From Bdellovibrio sp. ArHS (lineage in GTDB: Bacteria > Bdellovibrionota > Bdellovibrionia > Bdellovibrionales > Bdellovibrionaceae): DNA of 64,000 bases. Positions within the stretch are counted from its first letter, which is position 1; every line of letters begins with the position of its first letter. The position numbers were made by a program, and so were the translations under genes. The stretch lies in NCBI RefSeq assembly GCF_000786105.1, contig NZ_JTEV01000003.1, positions 186,001 through 250,000 of the forward strand, read 5' to 3'. The notes beneath the pieces were generated by a model. It did not search any database and was not told the origin of the DNA. It was given only the letters and a program-made list of their open reading frames with translations. Of the stretch, positions 24,390 to 36,113 are shown piece after piece.

Positions 24390-24767
24390 ATGGAAAGATC
24401 ATACAAGGTCAATTCTCAGCTTTTGCCACAGGGATTTCCGCGCGAATTCGATGCCCATATTTATTTTTCCGAGGCTTCTTTAACAGCGGCCGCGGAATTA
24501 AGACTGAAGGCGATGCAGGAATTTGCGGGACGTCAGGTCTTTGTTGGGCAACTGATTCCCGAACCTATTGGTCCGCACCCCTTACCCATGTTTGAAATCA
24601 ATTTTCCTTTGGCGTTATTTTCTGAAGTCGTCTTGTGGTTGATGAAGGCGCGCGGTGATCTGTCTGTCTTGGTGCATGAACTGACCGGCGATGATCTTTA
24701 TGATCATACTCAAGCGGCGTTATGGCTGGGTAAAGAAGTGCCGCTTTTATACGAACGTTTTAAATAA
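24390..24767 (+). CDS. DOPA 4,5-dioxygenase family protein
   Basis: 125 residues covering the whole small domain. Conserved elements are FDAHIYF at the start, PIGPHPLPMFEINF in the middle and VLVHELTGDDLYDHTQAALWLG near the end; the three His in these elements are the likely metal ligands. Family members open catechol rings, but many bacterial members have no known substrate. It starts nine bases after rfaE1 and overlaps the convergent GIY-YIG gene by eight bases. Confidence 0.85.
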   Translation: MERSYKVNSQLLPQGFPREFDAHIYFSEASLTAAAELRLKAMQEFAGRQVFVGQLIPEPIGPHPLPMFEINFPLALFSEVVLWLMKARGDLSVLVHELTGDDLYDHTQAALWLGKEVPLLYERFK

Positions 24768-26319
24768 AGTCTATTTTCTGATTTTGATCTTTCAGCTTAT
24801 TCAATTCGGTAAATAGCACTGTCATTCGGTCATAGGTATCAATCGAAAGATCTTTCCAGGACCCTTTCTGCTTTTGCAGTGAAGCTTCGGGTTGCAGCAC
24901 TTTTCCGTTTTGGATTTTTAATGTCATCTTATCATCAATCTGTATATGAACATTCAAAAGCCGTGTCAGACGTTTCGTACGGAGATAGGTCGCAGCCGAG
25001 CGAATGAAGTGCCGCTCATACTTGTCGGCCAGATCTTCGGGCGTCAGCTCGATCTCCAGAAGCTCTTCGGTATCATTATCTTCTTCCGCTTCTTCTGTTG
25101 TGTCTGTTGCTTCTGAGTCTGCGATTTCTTCCTCTTCCTGAAGCTGACGATACCAATTCAATCCCACGGCCAGAATGGATCGCACCGAACAGAAAGTCTG
25201 AGGCGTAAATCCGTGGCGTTGGCAGAAAACCTGGAAGCCTTCTGCCAAAAGGGCGGCATCCATCGGCTCGTAGAATATGTTTTCGTCGAAAGACTTGTCC
25301 TGCAAGGACGCACTTAGTTTTAAAATGGAATCCAAAGCCAAGGCGTTAGCAAAAGGTCCCAGAAAGTGTTCTTCGTCGGCTTCATTACGAAATGACGTAA
25401 AAGCTTTGTTGAAGAAACAAAGCTCTCGTCGTCCGGTTTTTAAACTGATGTTGTAAGGCGGGTCCAAACGCTTGATTTCGTCGGTCTCAAGCAATGCGGC
25501 CTCTAAAGGACTGCCTACGGGTGTGACTTGTAAATCCCACACTTGCGTGAGCATTTCCAATTTTCGAGTGTCGCGATTTTTCTGTCCCCGGAAGTAGCTG
25601 TTAACACGGTCGTGCAGGGAGGTTGCTTTACCGACGTACAGGACTTCCCCCCAGCGGCTTATCATACGATAGACGCCGGGCTGTTTGGGCAGACTCAGGC
25701 GCTTTTCTTTCGGCAGCGGGTATTCGTACTTCACTCGCGCGGTTTTGGGGGTGTCTTGAAGCCATTGTTCAAGGTCGGCCAAGGAGAGTATGCCTTTTTC
25801 AGCTAAAGCCGTCGTCAATCCTTGCCAAATGACCTGCGTGGCTTGCACATGATTGGCAGCGCGCTTTAGTTCACCCGAGGGGCAGCCAAAATATCCCGCA
25901 AGTCCTTTGATTCCTCTTGTCGGAAGATTGGGAAGCAGGCGCTTGGCAATTTCGTGTGTGCACAGAATAGAAAAAGGCATTTCTTCCTGTAGCTTTTCAT
26001 AGGCATCCACCAGGAAGGGACGTTCAAATTGCGCAAAATGAATGACCGCCACCGCTTCAGAGCCCAAGTGCTTCTGAACAAAACTTCTGAGATCGGCAAA
26101 TACCTGCGGTAAAGGGCGGGCTGCCTCTAGATCTTTTTGATAAATCCCCGTGATAAACTGAATGCGGCGGGGGACATCTTCAACTTGTTCAATCAATGCA
26201 CTTTCAATATGTTCACTGGCGAGCGAGGCCCAGGCGATTTCCAAAATATGCGCAGTGTCTGGTTTGGCACCTGTGGTTTGCAAATCCAAAAAAAGAACTG
26301 GCGTTTTGAGCAAACTCAT
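24760..26319 (-). CDS. Degenerate DnaQ-type exonuclease domain fused to a GIY-YIG (UvrC/Cho-like) nuclease
   Basis: 519 residues from the ATG at 26319, which overlaps the helicase stop (ATGA). Residues 5-175 have the DnaQ fold, but the catalytic carboxylates are altered: LDLQTTG has Gln14 where Glu is expected, HFAQFERPFL has Glu99 for Asp, and RAANHVQAT has His157 at the last Asp. Residues 212-300 are a GIY-YIG domain with PGVY, VLYVGKA, Arg238, the EAALLE Glu and Asn290 all kept. The last ~200 residues include an acidic stretch and match nothing I know. It probably nicks DNA, with the DnaQ domain as a binding module. Confidence 0.85.
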   Translation of the reverse strand: MSLLKTPVLFLDLQTTGAKPDTAHILEIAWASLASEHIESALIEQVEDVPRRIQFITGIYQKDLEAARPLPQVFADLRSFVQKHLGSEAVAVIHFAQFERPFLVDAYEKLQEEMPFSILCTHEIAKRLLPNLPTRGIKGLAGYFGCPSGELKRAANHVQATQVIWQGLTTALAEKGILSLADLEQWLQDTPKTARVKYEYPLPKEKRLSLPKQPGVYRMISRWGEVLYVGKATSLHDRVNSYFRGQKNRDTRKLEMLTQVWDLQVTPVGSPLEAALLETDEIKRLDPPYNISLKTGRRELCFFNKAFTSFRNEADEEHFLGPFANALALDSILKLSASLQDKSFDENIFYEPMDAALLAEGFQVFCQRHGFTPQTFCSVRSILAVGLNWYRQLQEEEEIADSEATDTTEEAEEDNDTEELLEIELTPEDLADKYERHFIRSAATYLRTKRLTRLLNVHIQIDDKMTLKIQNGKVLQPEASLQKQKGSWKDLSIDTYDRMTVLFTELNKLKDQNQKIDFI

Positions 26320-28682
26320 ACAGAGGTCCCCCAAAACTCTTTGATGTCGCTTAGAATCTGACGCGAAACGAGCTCTTGCGGAGATTCATTGAACCAGCCG
26401 TCAGGCATAGTCTCAGCATAGCTGGCCTGCAGGAAGCGGGAATCCAGCATGACAATAACACCACGATCTGTTTCCGAACGAATCACCCGTCCCGCTGACT
26501 GAATGGCTTTGGCCATGGCCGGATAGACGTAGGCGTAGTTGAACGCGTTTTCCTTGCCATAGCGAAGCTCATAGTAGGCGCGTATTTGCTCGCGCTCAAA
26601 ATCAAAGTTGGGAAGAGCCGGGCCGATCACAAAAGCCCCGATCAGCATATCTCCGGGAAAGTCCACGCCTTCGGAAAAGACACCACCTTGCACGCCCATA
26701 AGAAGTGTTGGTTTGTTCCCGGCTTTCAGCTCCTCAAGATACTCTTGAGTTTGCTTTTGTTTCATTTCGCGTTCCTGCACCAAAATCTGAAATTCCGGCA
26801 AAGAAAGTTTGGCTTCCACCATGCGCAGAAATTCGAAACTGGGGAAAAGAGCGATATAGTTGCCTTTTCGCAGTGCCGTGATCCTTTGAATGGTTTCGAC
26901 AATTTTTCCGGCACTGACATGACGATCAGAAAACTTCGTGGAGATCTGTGGGATAATCAGAAGTTTGCGATTATCTTTTTCAAATGGCGAAGAAAACTCA
27001 ACCTGTTTGGTGGTTTCTTCGGGGAACCCCATCAGCTCTTGATAGTAGGTGAAGGGTTTCAACGTCGCGGAAAAAGCCACGACGTTTTTAAATTCTTTGT
27101 ATGCGGAAGCCAAATGTTCCGAGGCATCACAACAGGTGATCTTAAGCATTTCGCTGAAAGTGCTTTTTTGATAGGTCTGAAAAAATTCATCCCCGCTTAA
27201 AGTCAAAGAGGCCACGAATTCGGACCACATATTCATCATGCGCAAAATCGGGTCCTGCGGCAGTATTTCAGTTTCTGATTCCAGATAAGACGTGGTCATT
27301 TCCCGAACATCCTGTTCAATTTCCAGGAAGGGATCTAAGTCGATAGTGACTTTTTTGGAAATGCCATCTTTGCCATAGGAAGAAATCAGCCGGCGCGCGC
27401 GCTGACACAAGGCCTGAGCCTGCATGTAAAAAGTGGGCGGCAGACGGGAAAAATCTTTTTCCAGCAAAGCCAGTTGTTGAGTTGAAATGCTCGGCGAAAA
27501 ATAGTCCTGGGCGCGCGAAGGAAGATTGTGAGCCTCGTCAATCACCAGATTCGCTTTTTCATTTTCTTCTAAAAGAGGCGCCGCCAGGCGTCCGATCAGG
27601 CTGCGGGGAGCAAAGACATAGTTGTAATCTCCGATGACCACGTCGGCGCGTTCAATGGCTTCCACCGACAACTCAAAAGGGCAAACTTGAAACTCTTCGC
27701 CCATGGTCTTTAATTTTTCACTGTCTAGACTGCGCAGTCGTGAAAGCTTATTGATCAGATCGTGTTCGGCCACCTTTTGATAGTAGTCTTTCGCGAATTC
27801 GCAGTACTGCGGATTGCACAAAGGCTCGGCTTTCAGGCACATCTTACTTTTGGCAGTGATAGTCAACGAGCGTATTTTGCATCCTTGCTCTTGCAGGCGT
27901 TCCACCGCTTCTTCAGCCACCTGGTGTTGCGAGTTCTTTGGCGTAACATAGACGACTCGCTGCCCGCGCGGTAAAGCTTCTTTCAGCGATGGATAAAGCA
28001 CACCGATAGTTTTACCTAGTCCGGTAGGGGCTTGCACTAAAAGTGGATTTTCATTTTTCAGATTTTCAGAAATTGTTTCGACAAGCTCTTTTTGCCCCTT
28101 GCGAGGCGAAGCAAATGGGAAGTTCATGTCTTCGCCAGCTTTTTGCCGTTTTTTAAAAAGTTTTTCTTTTTCTTTGGTTTCTTCCACCAGTTCAGCCAGA
28201 CGGATCTTTAACCAGGCTTCATAGCCGTCCAAATCCAATTCCACATTCAGGTCATAAGATTTGAAATTTCGTAGTGACACCAAATGCAACTTCAAGGTGG
28301 GGAATTGCCCGGTCTGTTGAAAGTGGAAATAGCCATAGGTTCTTAATTGCCAGACGTAGGGATGATTGGGCTCGCGTTCCAGCTTTGCCCGCAAATCATC
28401 AATATCAAAAGAGGACTTGATTTCTTCAATCAAACCTGTGGCTTCGACACAGCCATCGGCTCTTCCTGAAATAACAAATTCATAGGGATCTGCCGTAAAT
28501 GAATGGACGTATTTCTTTTCCGGCGTGTAGCCAGAGTTTTCGCGCACGCGTTGGCGCTGGATCATCACATGCACTTCCTGACCACTGGTGGGGATCGGTC
28601 CATAGCCTGAATGCGACTCGATGCTACCAACACGAGGCGCAGGCACGGCAAATTGTTTTAGGTCCAACGCTATTTTTCTCAT
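26316..28682 (-). CDS. PD-(D/E)XK nuclease fused to an XPD/DinG-family iron-sulfur helicase
   Basis: 788 residues. Residues 60-150 look like a RecB/Cas4-type nuclease: GRADG (Asp76), EEIK (Glu87, Lys89) and WQLRTYGY (Gln112, Tyr116). The superfamily 2 helicase follows: Walker A QAPTGLGKT at 218-225, DEAH at 382-385, and four cysteines (282, 289, 294, 334) placed as in the XPD 4Fe-4S domain. Late motifs include QSAGRVIRSETDRG. It should unwind 5'-3' and cut DNA ends. It starts one base after the radical SAM stop and overlaps the next gene by four bases, so the three proteins are made together. Confidence 0.9.
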   Translation of the reverse strand: MRKIALDLKQFAVPAPRVGSIESHSGYGPIPTSGQEVHVMIQRQRVRENSGYTPEKKYVHSFTADPYEFVISGRADGCVEATGLIEEIKSSFDIDDLRAKLEREPNHPYVWQLRTYGYFHFQQTGQFPTLKLHLVSLRNFKSYDLNVELDLDGYEAWLKIRLAELVEETKEKEKLFKKRQKAGEDMNFPFASPRKGQKELVETISENLKNENPLLVQAPTGLGKTIGVLYPSLKEALPRGQRVVYVTPKNSQHQVAEEAVERLQEQGCKIRSLTITAKSKMCLKAEPLCNPQYCEFAKDYYQKVAEHDLINKLSRLRSLDSEKLKTMGEEFQVCPFELSVEAIERADVVIGDYNYVFAPRSLIGRLAAPLLEENEKANLVIDEAHNLPSRAQDYFSPSISTQQLALLEKDFSRLPPTFYMQAQALCQRARRLISSYGKDGISKKVTIDLDPFLEIEQDVREMTTSYLESETEILPQDPILRMMNMWSEFVASLTLSGDEFFQTYQKSTFSEMLKITCCDASEHLASAYKEFKNVVAFSATLKPFTYYQELMGFPEETTKQVEFSSPFEKDNRKLLIIPQISTKFSDRHVSAGKIVETIQRITALRKGNYIALFPSFEFLRMVEAKLSLPEFQILVQEREMKQKQTQEYLEELKAGNKPTLLMGVQGGVFSEGVDFPGDMLIGAFVIGPALPNFDFEREQIRAYYELRYGKENAFNYAYVYPAMAKAIQSAGRVIRSETDRGVIVMLDSRFLQASYAETMPDGWFNESPQELVSRQILSDIKEFWGTSV

Positions 28683-28683
28683 C

Positions 28684-29760
28684 TTAATCTATATCAAATT
28701 TTAGTTGATCCCCGCGGCGCTGAAAGTGCTCAGTCGAGAGCTCAAACTTTTTCACATTTAAGTCATATTTGCGAGTATAAAGCTTGAACATTTGCGCCAT
28801 TTGTTCGGCGCGAGCTCCCTGTCCGCGCATACGCGAGCCAAAGTTAGGATCATTGAGTTTGCCGCCACGTATATCACGCACCGAGTTCAAGATTTTTTCC
28901 TTTTTCAAGGGGCGATGGACGTCCAGCCATTCTTCAAAAAGAGGACTGACGGACGACGGCAAACGCAAAGGTGTGTAGCCGGCATACTGGGCTCCCGCGT
29001 CCCGGGCTGCTTTTAAAATGGCCGGCATTTCGTGGTCATTCAATCCCGGAATGCAAGGAGCGACATTCACGCCCACAGGCACACCCGCGTGAGCCAGAGT
29101 TTCAAGAGCTTTCAGGCGGGCAGCGGGACGGGAGGTGCGCGGCTCCAAAACCTGCACAAGTTCATCATCTAAAGAAGTGATGGAAATAAAAACTAAAACT
29201 CCATTATAAGCCGCCATTGGCGCCAGAAGGTCTACGTCGCGAGTGACTAAAGCATTTTTGGTGATCAAGGAAACAGGATTTTTAAACTCTAATAGAACTT
29301 CCAGGCATCCACGCGTTAGTTGCATCTTTCTTTCTAAGGGCTGGTAGCAATCGGTGATGCCACTCATAGCAATCACTGCGGGTTGCCACGAGGGCTTCAG
29401 TAAAGCGGTTCGCAAAAGTTGCGGGGCTTCTTCTTTCACAAAAATTTTAGATTCAAAATCCAATCCCGGCGATAAACCTAAGTACTCGTGAGTGGGGCGC
29501 GCGTAGCAATACGCGCAGCCGTGTTCACAGCCGCGATAAGGATTGATTGAAAAAGTAAAGCCGATGTCTGGGCTTTTATTTTCCGTGATAATCGTGCGCG
29601 AAGAATCTTTCAGAACTTCCGTTTTAAGAAGAGCTTTTTCGTCCTCAAGATAATTGTCGAAATCTTCTGTAGTAGCTTCATATTTCAAAGAGTCGTAACG
29701 ATTGGTGACATTGCTACTGGCGCCGCGACCACGGATGTTTTTGCGAAATTCCCGGGTCAT
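28684..29760 (-). CDS. Radical SAM protein, PA0069/Rv2578c family (SplB-related)
   Basis: 358 residues. The radical SAM cluster motif is CEHGCAYCYARP (C-x3-C-x2-C) at about residue 80, within FSINPYRGCEHGCAYCYARP. The C-terminal part is the SplB-related TIM barrel. The best-known relative, spore photoproduct lyase, repairs DNA, but the function of this family is not established. Being first in a coupled unit with a nuclease-helicase and a GIY-YIG protein favours a role in nucleic acid processing (inference). Confidence 0.88.
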   Translation of the reverse strand: MTREFRKNIRGRGASSNVTNRYDSLKYEATTEDFDNYLEDEKALLKTEVLKDSSRTIITENKSPDIGFTFSINPYRGCEHGCAYCYARPTHEYLGLSPGLDFESKIFVKEEAPQLLRTALLKPSWQPAVIAMSGITDCYQPLERKMQLTRGCLEVLLEFKNPVSLITKNALVTRDVDLLAPMAAYNGVLVFISITSLDDELVQVLEPRTSRPAARLKALETLAHAGVPVGVNVAPCIPGLNDHEMPAILKAARDAGAQYAGYTPLRLPSSVSPLFEEWLDVHRPLKKEKILNSVRDIRGGKLNDPNFGSRMRGQGARAEQMAQMFKLYTRKYDLNVKKFELSTEHFQRRGDQLKFDID

Positions 29761-34405: not shown

Positions 34406-34804
34406 ATGTTCAACAAATCAACTTCACTTCGTTTCATGAGTCTTATGATGTTAACTTCTTTGATGGCGCCAATGTTGGTGTCGTCAAAGGCTGCTGCCAC
34501 TCCGGTGCGTGATGCTGGAAAGGTAGAGTCGCGATTTTTGACGGCAGCAAAGGGAGCCTGCGCGGCCCTTTACAGTTCTTCCCAGAAGAACATCCCGGGT
34601 CTAGAACAAGCCTTGGCGCCGATTCATCAAAAGATGGATGCGTTCTGTGAGAACCCGCAAGCCGATCAGGTTGTCATCAGAGACTTGATGGATGTAGCAC
34701 GTGAAACCCTGGCTTCTTCAGAAGACAGTGTCGTTGTCAGATCTCATGTCTTGCAAGTCTATAACCACCTTAACTACACCCTGCAAACGACATTTATTTG
34801 GTAA
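34406..34804 (+). CDS. Short exported protein, internally deleted paralogue of the next gene
   Basis: 132 residues. The signal peptide (MFNKSTSLRFMSLMMLTSLM) and the TAAKGACAALY to LNYTLQ region match the N-terminus and the C-terminal domain of the 386-residue protein at 34953. The central ~165 residues and the C-terminal ~65 are missing. A short out-of-frame tail (TFIW) ends the chain. The strong AAGGAG leader is kept, so it may still be expressed. Beyond the deletion there are no frameshifts in the shared region. Confidence 0.7.
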   Translation: MFNKSTSLRFMSLMMLTSLMAPMLVSSKAAATPVRDAGKVESRFLTAAKGACAALYSSSQKNIPGLEQALAPIHQKMDAFCENPQADQVVIRDLMDVARETLASSEDSVVVRSHVLQVYNHLNYTLQTTFIW

Positions 34805-34952: not shown

Positions 34953-36113
34953 ATGCTCATCAAATCAACCGCACTTCGTTTCCTGAGTCTTATGATGTTT
35001 ACGTCTTTGACAGTGGCGCCCTTATTGGCGTCAGCCAGAGGCATTGGCTCAAGTGGTGGCGGCACATTTTGCATAAAGCCCGAGTTAAATGGCGGTCAGC
35101 CCGTACTCCTTGACCTGGCGCTGGCTAAACCAAATTTTCAGGATCGTCGTGGCGAGCAAGTCCACGTAACATCGGTGGCGAACCTTATCGGTTTTGACAG
35201 CTTTAAGCATACTGAAACTCAAGCCTATCAGTTCGCTGTCAGCCGAGTTAAAGCCTGGACCCAAGTGATGCCAGAACTTGCTACACTGGAAGCAACTCTG
35301 CAGAGCCTCCAGATGGTTGTCACACCATTTAGTCTAACCCAAGTAAATCGTGCCGTGGTCGATGGCCAATCAGCGTGCCAGGCTAAGGATCTTGCACCGG
35401 TGATCTTCTATGTTGATGGCCGTGCTCATGTTTCGATCCCTTCCTGGAATAAGCTTGGCTTCTATTCGCAGGCGGCCGCTTTTGTTCATGAGTCGCTTCG
35501 TCAAAGACAGATTTTACATAAGCAGCCGGTTGATGATGCCACTCTTCAAAATCTTACAGGGCGTATCATGCTCGACACTCCCGTGCGTGATGAAGCTATC
35601 ACACACAGTGGTCTTTTTGTCGGCAATGCGAAGGCAGAAGCAAGAGTTTTAACGGCTGCAAAGAAGGCCTGTGCCACTCTTTACAAAGCTGCTAATAAGG
35701 ATCTCCCAGGTCTAAAACAAGCCTTGGCGCCAGTTCATCAAAAAATGGATGCTTTCTGTGAAGCTCCGCAAGCCGATCAGGTTGTCATCAGAGACTTGAT
35801 GGATGTGACAAGCGAAACTCTCGCTTCTTCAAAAGAGGGTGTCGTTGTTAGACAAGCGATCTTACAAATCTACAACGATCTTAACCACACCCTGCAATTG
35901 ACAGTTGCTGGCGGCATTGAAGCTCTCAATCCTGTGGCTGCGGATAGCATCAACGCTCTCGCTCTTGGAACGGATGATATGGCTGCGGTGCAAATTGCAC
36001 AAGCGTACCTAGATAACGGTATTAAGCCCGAGAAAATGGCGGAAGCTGAAAGCTATATCAGAAGCACTCGAGCCCAATACAAAACCCTTTTAGAGCAAAA
36101 CGAACTTAAGTAA
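34953..36113 (+). CDS. Exported protein of a Bdellovibrio-type family
   Basis: 386 residues with a signal peptide (about 30 residues) followed by GIGSSGGGTFCIK and LLDLALAK, an opening I associate with a family of secreted Bdellovibrio proteins of unknown function. A central segment FVHESLRQRQ is followed by LQNLTGRIM. The C-terminal domain (LTAAKKACATLY...LNHTLQ) is shared with the preceding short gene. No catalytic motif is secure; the HE in FVHESL is not a full HExxH. A strong AAAGGAG site precedes the ATG. Confidence 0.75.
   Translation: MLIKSTALRFLSLMMFTSLTVAPLLASARGIGSSGGGTFCIKPELNGGQPVLLDLALAKPNFQDRRGEQVHVTSVANLIGFDSFKHTETQAYQFAVSRVKAWTQVMPELATLEATLQSLQMVVTPFSLTQVNRAVVDGQSACQAKDLAPVIFYVDGRAHVSIPSWNKLGFYSQAAAFVHESLRQRQILHKQPVDDATLQNLTGRIMLDTPVRDEAITHSGLFVGNAKAEARVLTAAKKACATLYKAANKDLPGLKQALAPVHQKMDAFCEAPQADQVVIRDLMDVTSETLASSKEGVVVRQAILQIYNDLNHTLQLTVAGGIEALNPVAADSINALALGTDDMAAVQIAQAYLDNGIKPEKMAEAESYIRSTRAQYKTLLEQNELK

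Follow-up and report, generated by a model that had tools for sequence, protein, structure and literature searches.

Pairing of an EndoDinG-type helicase with a DnaQ-fold/GIY-YIG protein in Bdellovibrio sp. ArHS and its relatives: a candidate DNA-repair module

The locus and its three proteins

Within a stretch of 64,000 nucleotides from Bdellovibrio sp. ArHS (hereafter the window, whose numbering is used throughout), three genes follow each other head to tail on the minus strand, coding in this order for a radical SAM protein, a helicase and a protein that joins a DnaQ fold to a GIY-YIG domain (Table 1). An earlier note on this DNA had described the three open reading frames, their tight spacing and both junctions, and all of these were found in the sequence as described. 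The radical SAM gene stops one base ahead of the helicase start (TAA G ATG), and the helicase stop codon overlaps the next start codon as ATGA, an overlap that makes translational coupling between the helicase and its downstream partner likely. A DOPA 4,5-dioxygenase family gene (24390-24767), retained in this place in several Bdellovibrio genomes, converges on the DnaQ/GIY-YIG gene with an 8-base overlap of the ends. Farther along the window, the neighbours at 34406-34804 and 34953-36113 have a similar signal-peptide start and share a similar segment (AAKGACAALY and ALAPIHQKMDAFCE), apparently the product of a partial tandem duplication.

Table 1. Coordinates of the genes, domains and junctions at the locus (positions in the window)
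Feature	Position	Strand	Detail
PA0069-family radical SAM protein, 358 aa	28684..29760	-	CxxxCxxC motif in RGCEHGCAYC
Radical SAM stop and one-base gap ahead of helicase ATG	28683..28686	-	sequence
EndoDinG-type helicase, 788 aa	26316..28682	-	PD-(D/E)XK and DinG/XPD with four-Cys Fe-S domain
Helicase, N-terminal PD-(D/E)XK nuclease	about 28143-28682	-	H38, E55, D76, E87, K89, Q112
Helicase, Fe-S domain cysteines			C282, C289, C294, C334
ATGA, shared by helicase stop codon and partner start codon	26316..26319	-	sequence
DnaQ-fold pseudo-exonuclease, GIY-YIG and C-terminal region, 519 aa	24760..26319	-	
Partner, DnaQ-fold part	about 25750-26319	-	
Partner, GIY-YIG part	about 25417-25695	-	

The first protein is indeed a radical SAM protein and matches the PA0069 family model (NF033668) over its full length, scoring 479.6 bits where the cut-off is 360. 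Its earlier description as SplB-related did not hold up well. No spore photoproduct lyase chain was retrieved up to an E value of 1, none of the models in the NCBIfam table for this protein belongs to that family, and the identity as a spore photoproduct lyase was rejected; with no such structure matched, the resemblance of the window protein to SplB is unconfirmed.

The helicase has DEAD_2 and Helicase_C_2 domains in addition to an N-terminal PD-(D/E)XK domain of ~180 residues, and Finegoldia magna DinG (9kqh) matches it over the full length, the nuclease included. Since its AlphaFold2 model was poor (pLDDT 68.5), the overall fold match alone was used. Residues H38, E55, D76, E87 and K89 are conserved throughout 107 homologues (one gap at H38), as are the four cysteines (one X), and the same set is invariant at the PD-(D/E)XK (Q112 too), Walker, Fe-S and arginine positions save for single gaps or ambiguities. 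The nuclease site is intact, and the PD-(D/E)XK residues, the four-cysteine Fe-S domain and the XPD/DinG motors together place the protein, as judged from its sequence, in EndoDinG; the earlier reading, a PD-(D/E)XK nuclease on an XPD-like iron-sulfur helicase, agrees with this. EndoDinG is a subgroup of DinG-like helicases named in 2025 with Bdellovibrio bacteriovorus HD100 as the type; for the latter, the naming paper refers to an endonuclease activity as unpublished (Cheng 2025, PMC11981726). Our protein shares with the described one, and with 9kqh, the nuclease domain with its H, E, D, E and K, the Fe-S domain and the XPD-type motors, but the EndoDinG section of that paper deals with the helicase alone and gives no genomic partner. 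The possibility of a type IV-A CRISPR DinG (Csf4) was rejected, with 36.8 bits to the equivalog TIGR03117 against a cut-off of 400, and no csf gene was found among the flanking genes scanned around the locus.

The partner has an RNase_T/DnaQ domain followed by a UvrC/Cho-type GIY-YIG domain, the architecture that had been proposed for it. Its model (mean pLDDT 86.2) finds its best fold match in Staphylococcus aureus DinG (8zef); it also matches other DnaQ domains, as well as the GIY-YIG domain of UvrC. The match between UvrC 1yd6 and the GIY-YIG part is of 98 bits. The GIY-YIG residues Y217, Y228, R238, E278 and N290 are conserved in 50/50 copies, and this nuclease site is intact too. The situation of the DnaQ domain is different. 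With the motif columns set by alignment with three intact relatives (Tsukamurella, Acidithiobacillus and Cupriavidus), motif I reads DxQ instead of DxE (E14 = Q) and the motif II Asp is replaced by Glu (position 99), both in 50/50 copies, while in motif III the catalytic His has become Lys in 45 of 53 copies and the catalytic Asp either His (41/53) or Gln (9/53). The intact control members retain DxE and D. As a two-metal DEDDh exonuclease the domain is very probably dead, and since the altered residues are under constraint, the conservation pattern suggests that a binding role was retained. The term pseudo-exonuclease used in the earlier note was therefore borne out, more strongly than claimed, as the substitutions are invariant across phyla. 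Incidentally, in two genomes (G081 and G082, loci L143 and L144) a very divergent helicase (~30% identity) is still followed by a divergent DnaQ/GIY-YIG gene, and this gene shows the Q and E substitutions as well.

The nearest NCBIfam group of the partner is PRK07883, although the score to NF005906 (153 bits) is far under the cut-off of 495. PRK07883 and NF005903-NF005907 correspond to the Cho-like + Exo GIY-YIG proteins of Actinobacteria (Dunin-Horkawicz 2006, PMC1564403), in which a DnaQ fold is likewise followed by a UvrC-type GIY-YIG domain. The order of the domains is the same, but the intact DEDD site that characterizes the group is altered in every partner copy, whereas the control members keep theirs, and the passages of that paper devoted to these proteins describe no pairing with a helicase. 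A DnaQ-fold domain is also teamed with a DinG helicase in ExoDinG (S. aureus DinG); there, however, it is fused to the helicase, and here it is a separate protein with an altered site.

Conservation of the pair and the place of the radical SAM gene

Helicase and partner genes are both present in 22 of the 24 genomes of the genus Bdellovibrio, adjacent in 22/22, and both are missing in the other 2. Across the class (144 genomes), the helicase was found in 33 of the 34 genomes with the partner, the sole exception being a genome that is 64% complete. The two genes are adjacent in 29 of those 33; the others are the fragmented G084 and three genomes (G059, G062 and G093) in which a TIGR04122 gene is coupled to the helicase. 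In the Obscuribacterales, which belong to another phylum, the pair is adjacent in 22/22 genomes with both genes, on one strand and with the partner downstream, and overlapping pairs occur on three Legionella plasmids (L. lytica, L. longbeachae and L. sainthelensi). The neighbourhood comparison beyond close relatives proposed in the earlier note thus upholds only part of the three-gene coupled unit that it had described: the pair is kept across phyla, and the radical SAM gene adjoins it within Bdellovibrio only. From these gene orders, the true unit is the helicase and the DnaQ/GIY-YIG protein, with the radical SAM protein outside it.

All three genes might also make up a single system, with a radical SAM protein that reverses a lesion directly or modifies something that the helicase-nucleases need. 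Of the 24 Bdellovibrio genomes, 14 have the radical SAM gene, and in 12 of these 14 the helicase gene comes immediately after it. These cases are spread over two chromosomal neighbourhoods that are unrelated to each other (one with MFS/rlmN, the other after the atp operon), so that the link within the genus is not trivial. Moreover, radical SAM and helicase co-occur in the class (2 × 2 counts 29, 19; 6, 90, kinship ignored). However, 8 of the 22 pair-bearing Bdellovibrio genomes lack the radical SAM gene, as in G003 and G013, where the MFS gene is immediately ahead of the helicase. No case of adjacency to the helicase was found in the class outside Bdellovibrio, nor was the gene seen near the pair in the Obscuribacterales or Legionella loci; in L038 it is two genes away from the helicase and on the opposite strand. 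It also tracks a separate cluster, that of TIGR04122, equally well: every genome of the genus that has TIGR04122 (10/10) belongs to the 14 in which the radical SAM gene is present (Fisher p 0.0006, kinship ignored), and the counts for the class are 24, 6; 11, 103 (kinship ignored). The TIGR04122 copy of the genus that was checked (L157) belongs to a four-gene cluster of the classic kind, TIGR04122-TIGR04120-TIGR04121-TIGR04123. A group of genes that resembles a TIGR04120-04123 cluster by size and order ends with the radical SAM gene in G046, TIGR04122 alone having been scored there. The co-occurrence of PA0069 radical SAM genes with this cluster was noted for L164:13148-14239 and for the genus. 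A constant radical SAM member of the unit was rejected on its lack of adjacency outside the genus, and a single system of three genes is, in our view, unlikely. By its distribution, the radical SAM gene would rather be a Bdellovibrio-specific upstream companion of the pair, with a presence that follows the TIGR04122 cluster.

An alternative partner and the history of the linkage

TIGR04122 is defined as a “ligase-associated DNA damage response exonuclease” and is SNM1-like (cut-off 325 bits). In 27 loci from other Bdellovibrionota, Elusimicrobia and unclassified Proteobacteria (L029:7064-10491 is an example), a relative of it lies directly upstream of the helicase gene in the same orientation, in many cases with an overlap, and is translationally coupled to it; in the three loci scored, values were 344.6-392.2 bits, all above the cut-off. 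Never, among the helicase genes examined, were both partners adjacent to a single one, and the genome of the window (95.9% complete) gave no match to TIGR04122. These operons resemble the ligase-associated or cisplatin damage response cluster (TIGR04120-TIGR04123) in having a helicase operon-coupled with a nuclease, TIGR04122 being common to both, but EndoDinG occupies the place of the Lhr-type helicase TIGR04121, and neither ligase nor phosphoesterase is seen. In fact, TIGR04121 had no match at E 1e-60 in 15 of the 16 TIGR04122-EndoDinG genomes searched. The best reading of these loci is that the partner nuclease of EndoDinG is interchangeable, either DnaQ/GIY-YIG or TIGR04122.

Adjacency might also reflect mere vertical inheritance, or hitch-hiking within an operon, of proteins that act separately. 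Much of the linkage in Bdellovibrio is by descent, and the partner is unlinked in G092 as well as in the three genomes with a TIGR04122-coupled helicase mentioned above. The comparison of gene phylogenies, another check suggested beforehand, gave congruent helicase and partner trees (Mantel r 0.90 for 46 pairs, 0/1000 permutations). Still, the paired helicases do not form a single clade: their monophyly was rejected (AU p 0.0003, or 0.005 without L054), and those of Legionella are placed among helicases of the TIGR04122 type. The gene order also differs, with the partner upstream instead of downstream of the helicase in L103 and L054. Because of these two features, the linkage was made or preserved more than once. 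Pairs found in two phyla and, on plasmids, in a third group, with a differing order, and a helicase that can be coupled to another nuclease instead, make hitch-hiking quite improbable.

Genomic context and a possible role in DNA repair

The neighbourhood of the pair points towards DNA repair, one of the two roles that the earlier note had considered possible, and the use of TIGR04122 as alternative partner supports it too. The three Legionella plasmid loci (L162, L163 and L171) all have a UmuC-type polymerase and UmuD nearby, and on some of the plasmids there are also DinB (Pol IV), SRAP (SOS response-associated peptidase), Ku, LigD and UdgX. The other role, defence, would have phage or plasmid DNA destroyed by the GIY-YIG protein and a helicase-nuclease of the DinG type, a type found in type IV-A CRISPR. 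DinG helicases do act in type IV CRISPR, the PADLOC typeIV_DinG profile matches the helicase with 388 bits, the distribution is patchy and the module is found on conjugative plasmids; but the profiles that the partner matches in PADLOC are all generic (DEDDh/PDC-S48), no defence genes were seen around the pair, no relatives of the module were matched in viral contigs, the Bdellovibrio locus lies at core chromosomal sites beside housekeeping genes (rlmN or the atp operon), and the plasmid and TIGR04122 contexts are made of repair genes, so that defence is poorly supported and very unlikely. A phage origin was likewise rejected, as viral contigs held no relatives. Some unannotated “phage” records of Listeria and Enterococcus do give hits at ~30% identity, but these may be host DNA. 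Full-length EndoDinG-like genes stand in “Listeria phage” records (e.g., OR848115.1 and OR846734.1), a label that may be wrong for what could be DNA of the host or of a plasmid.

Taken as a whole, we consider it probable that the helicase and the DnaQ/GIY-YIG protein form a two-protein DNA-repair module in which the partner is replaceable by TIGR04122, and a repair role as such seems highly probable. Some observations do not sit easily with such a module. The SOS box is TTACN3GTAA, and none was found upstream of the operon, either in the window or in the loci of the genus; SOS control through this motif was rejected. The helicases of Geobacter and Nitrospirae have neither partner adjacent, and G059, G062 and G093 keep a DnaQ/GIY-YIG gene away from their TIGR04122-coupled helicase. 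In the module as we picture it, the helicase would load on single-stranded DNA next to a lesion that blocks replication (crosslink, bulky adduct, abasic or protein adduct) and unwind 5'-3', as expected of the DinG/XPD type, while its PD-(D/E)XK domain would cut the 5' strand that is displaced. A second incision, of the 3' type, could come from the GIY-YIG domain, and the DnaQ domain, instead of digesting DNA, may grip the 3' end or dock on the helicase. In the TIGR04122 lineages, exonuclease trimming would take the place of the second cut, and in Bdellovibrio the PA0069 radical SAM protein would be co-expressed as an accessory factor. The substrates named here (crosslinks, bulky or abasic/protein adducts) were guessed from the context, and we propose crosslinks or bulky adducts as the main one only tentatively.

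Each of these families was already known, and EndoDinG already had a name. The pair, the exchange of partners and the DnaQ alteration appear to be new, since a search of the literature, mostly outside subscription journals, retrieved no description of any of the three. There is a somewhat better than even chance of an undescribed bacterial repair system with EndoDinG as its constant core and with exchangeable nucleases, either a GIY-YIG protein whose DnaQ site is invariant and reworked rather than simply decayed, or TIGR04122, and with the PA0069 protein as a further component. For the PA0069 family, co-occurrence with these genes is a contextual hint. The invariant, non-canonical DnaQ site would represent an exonuclease fold retained for something besides ordinary exonuclease activity. 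Finally, a conserved partner, together with an exchangeable one that comes from a named DNA-damage cluster, would offer a direct test of the role of EndoDinG.
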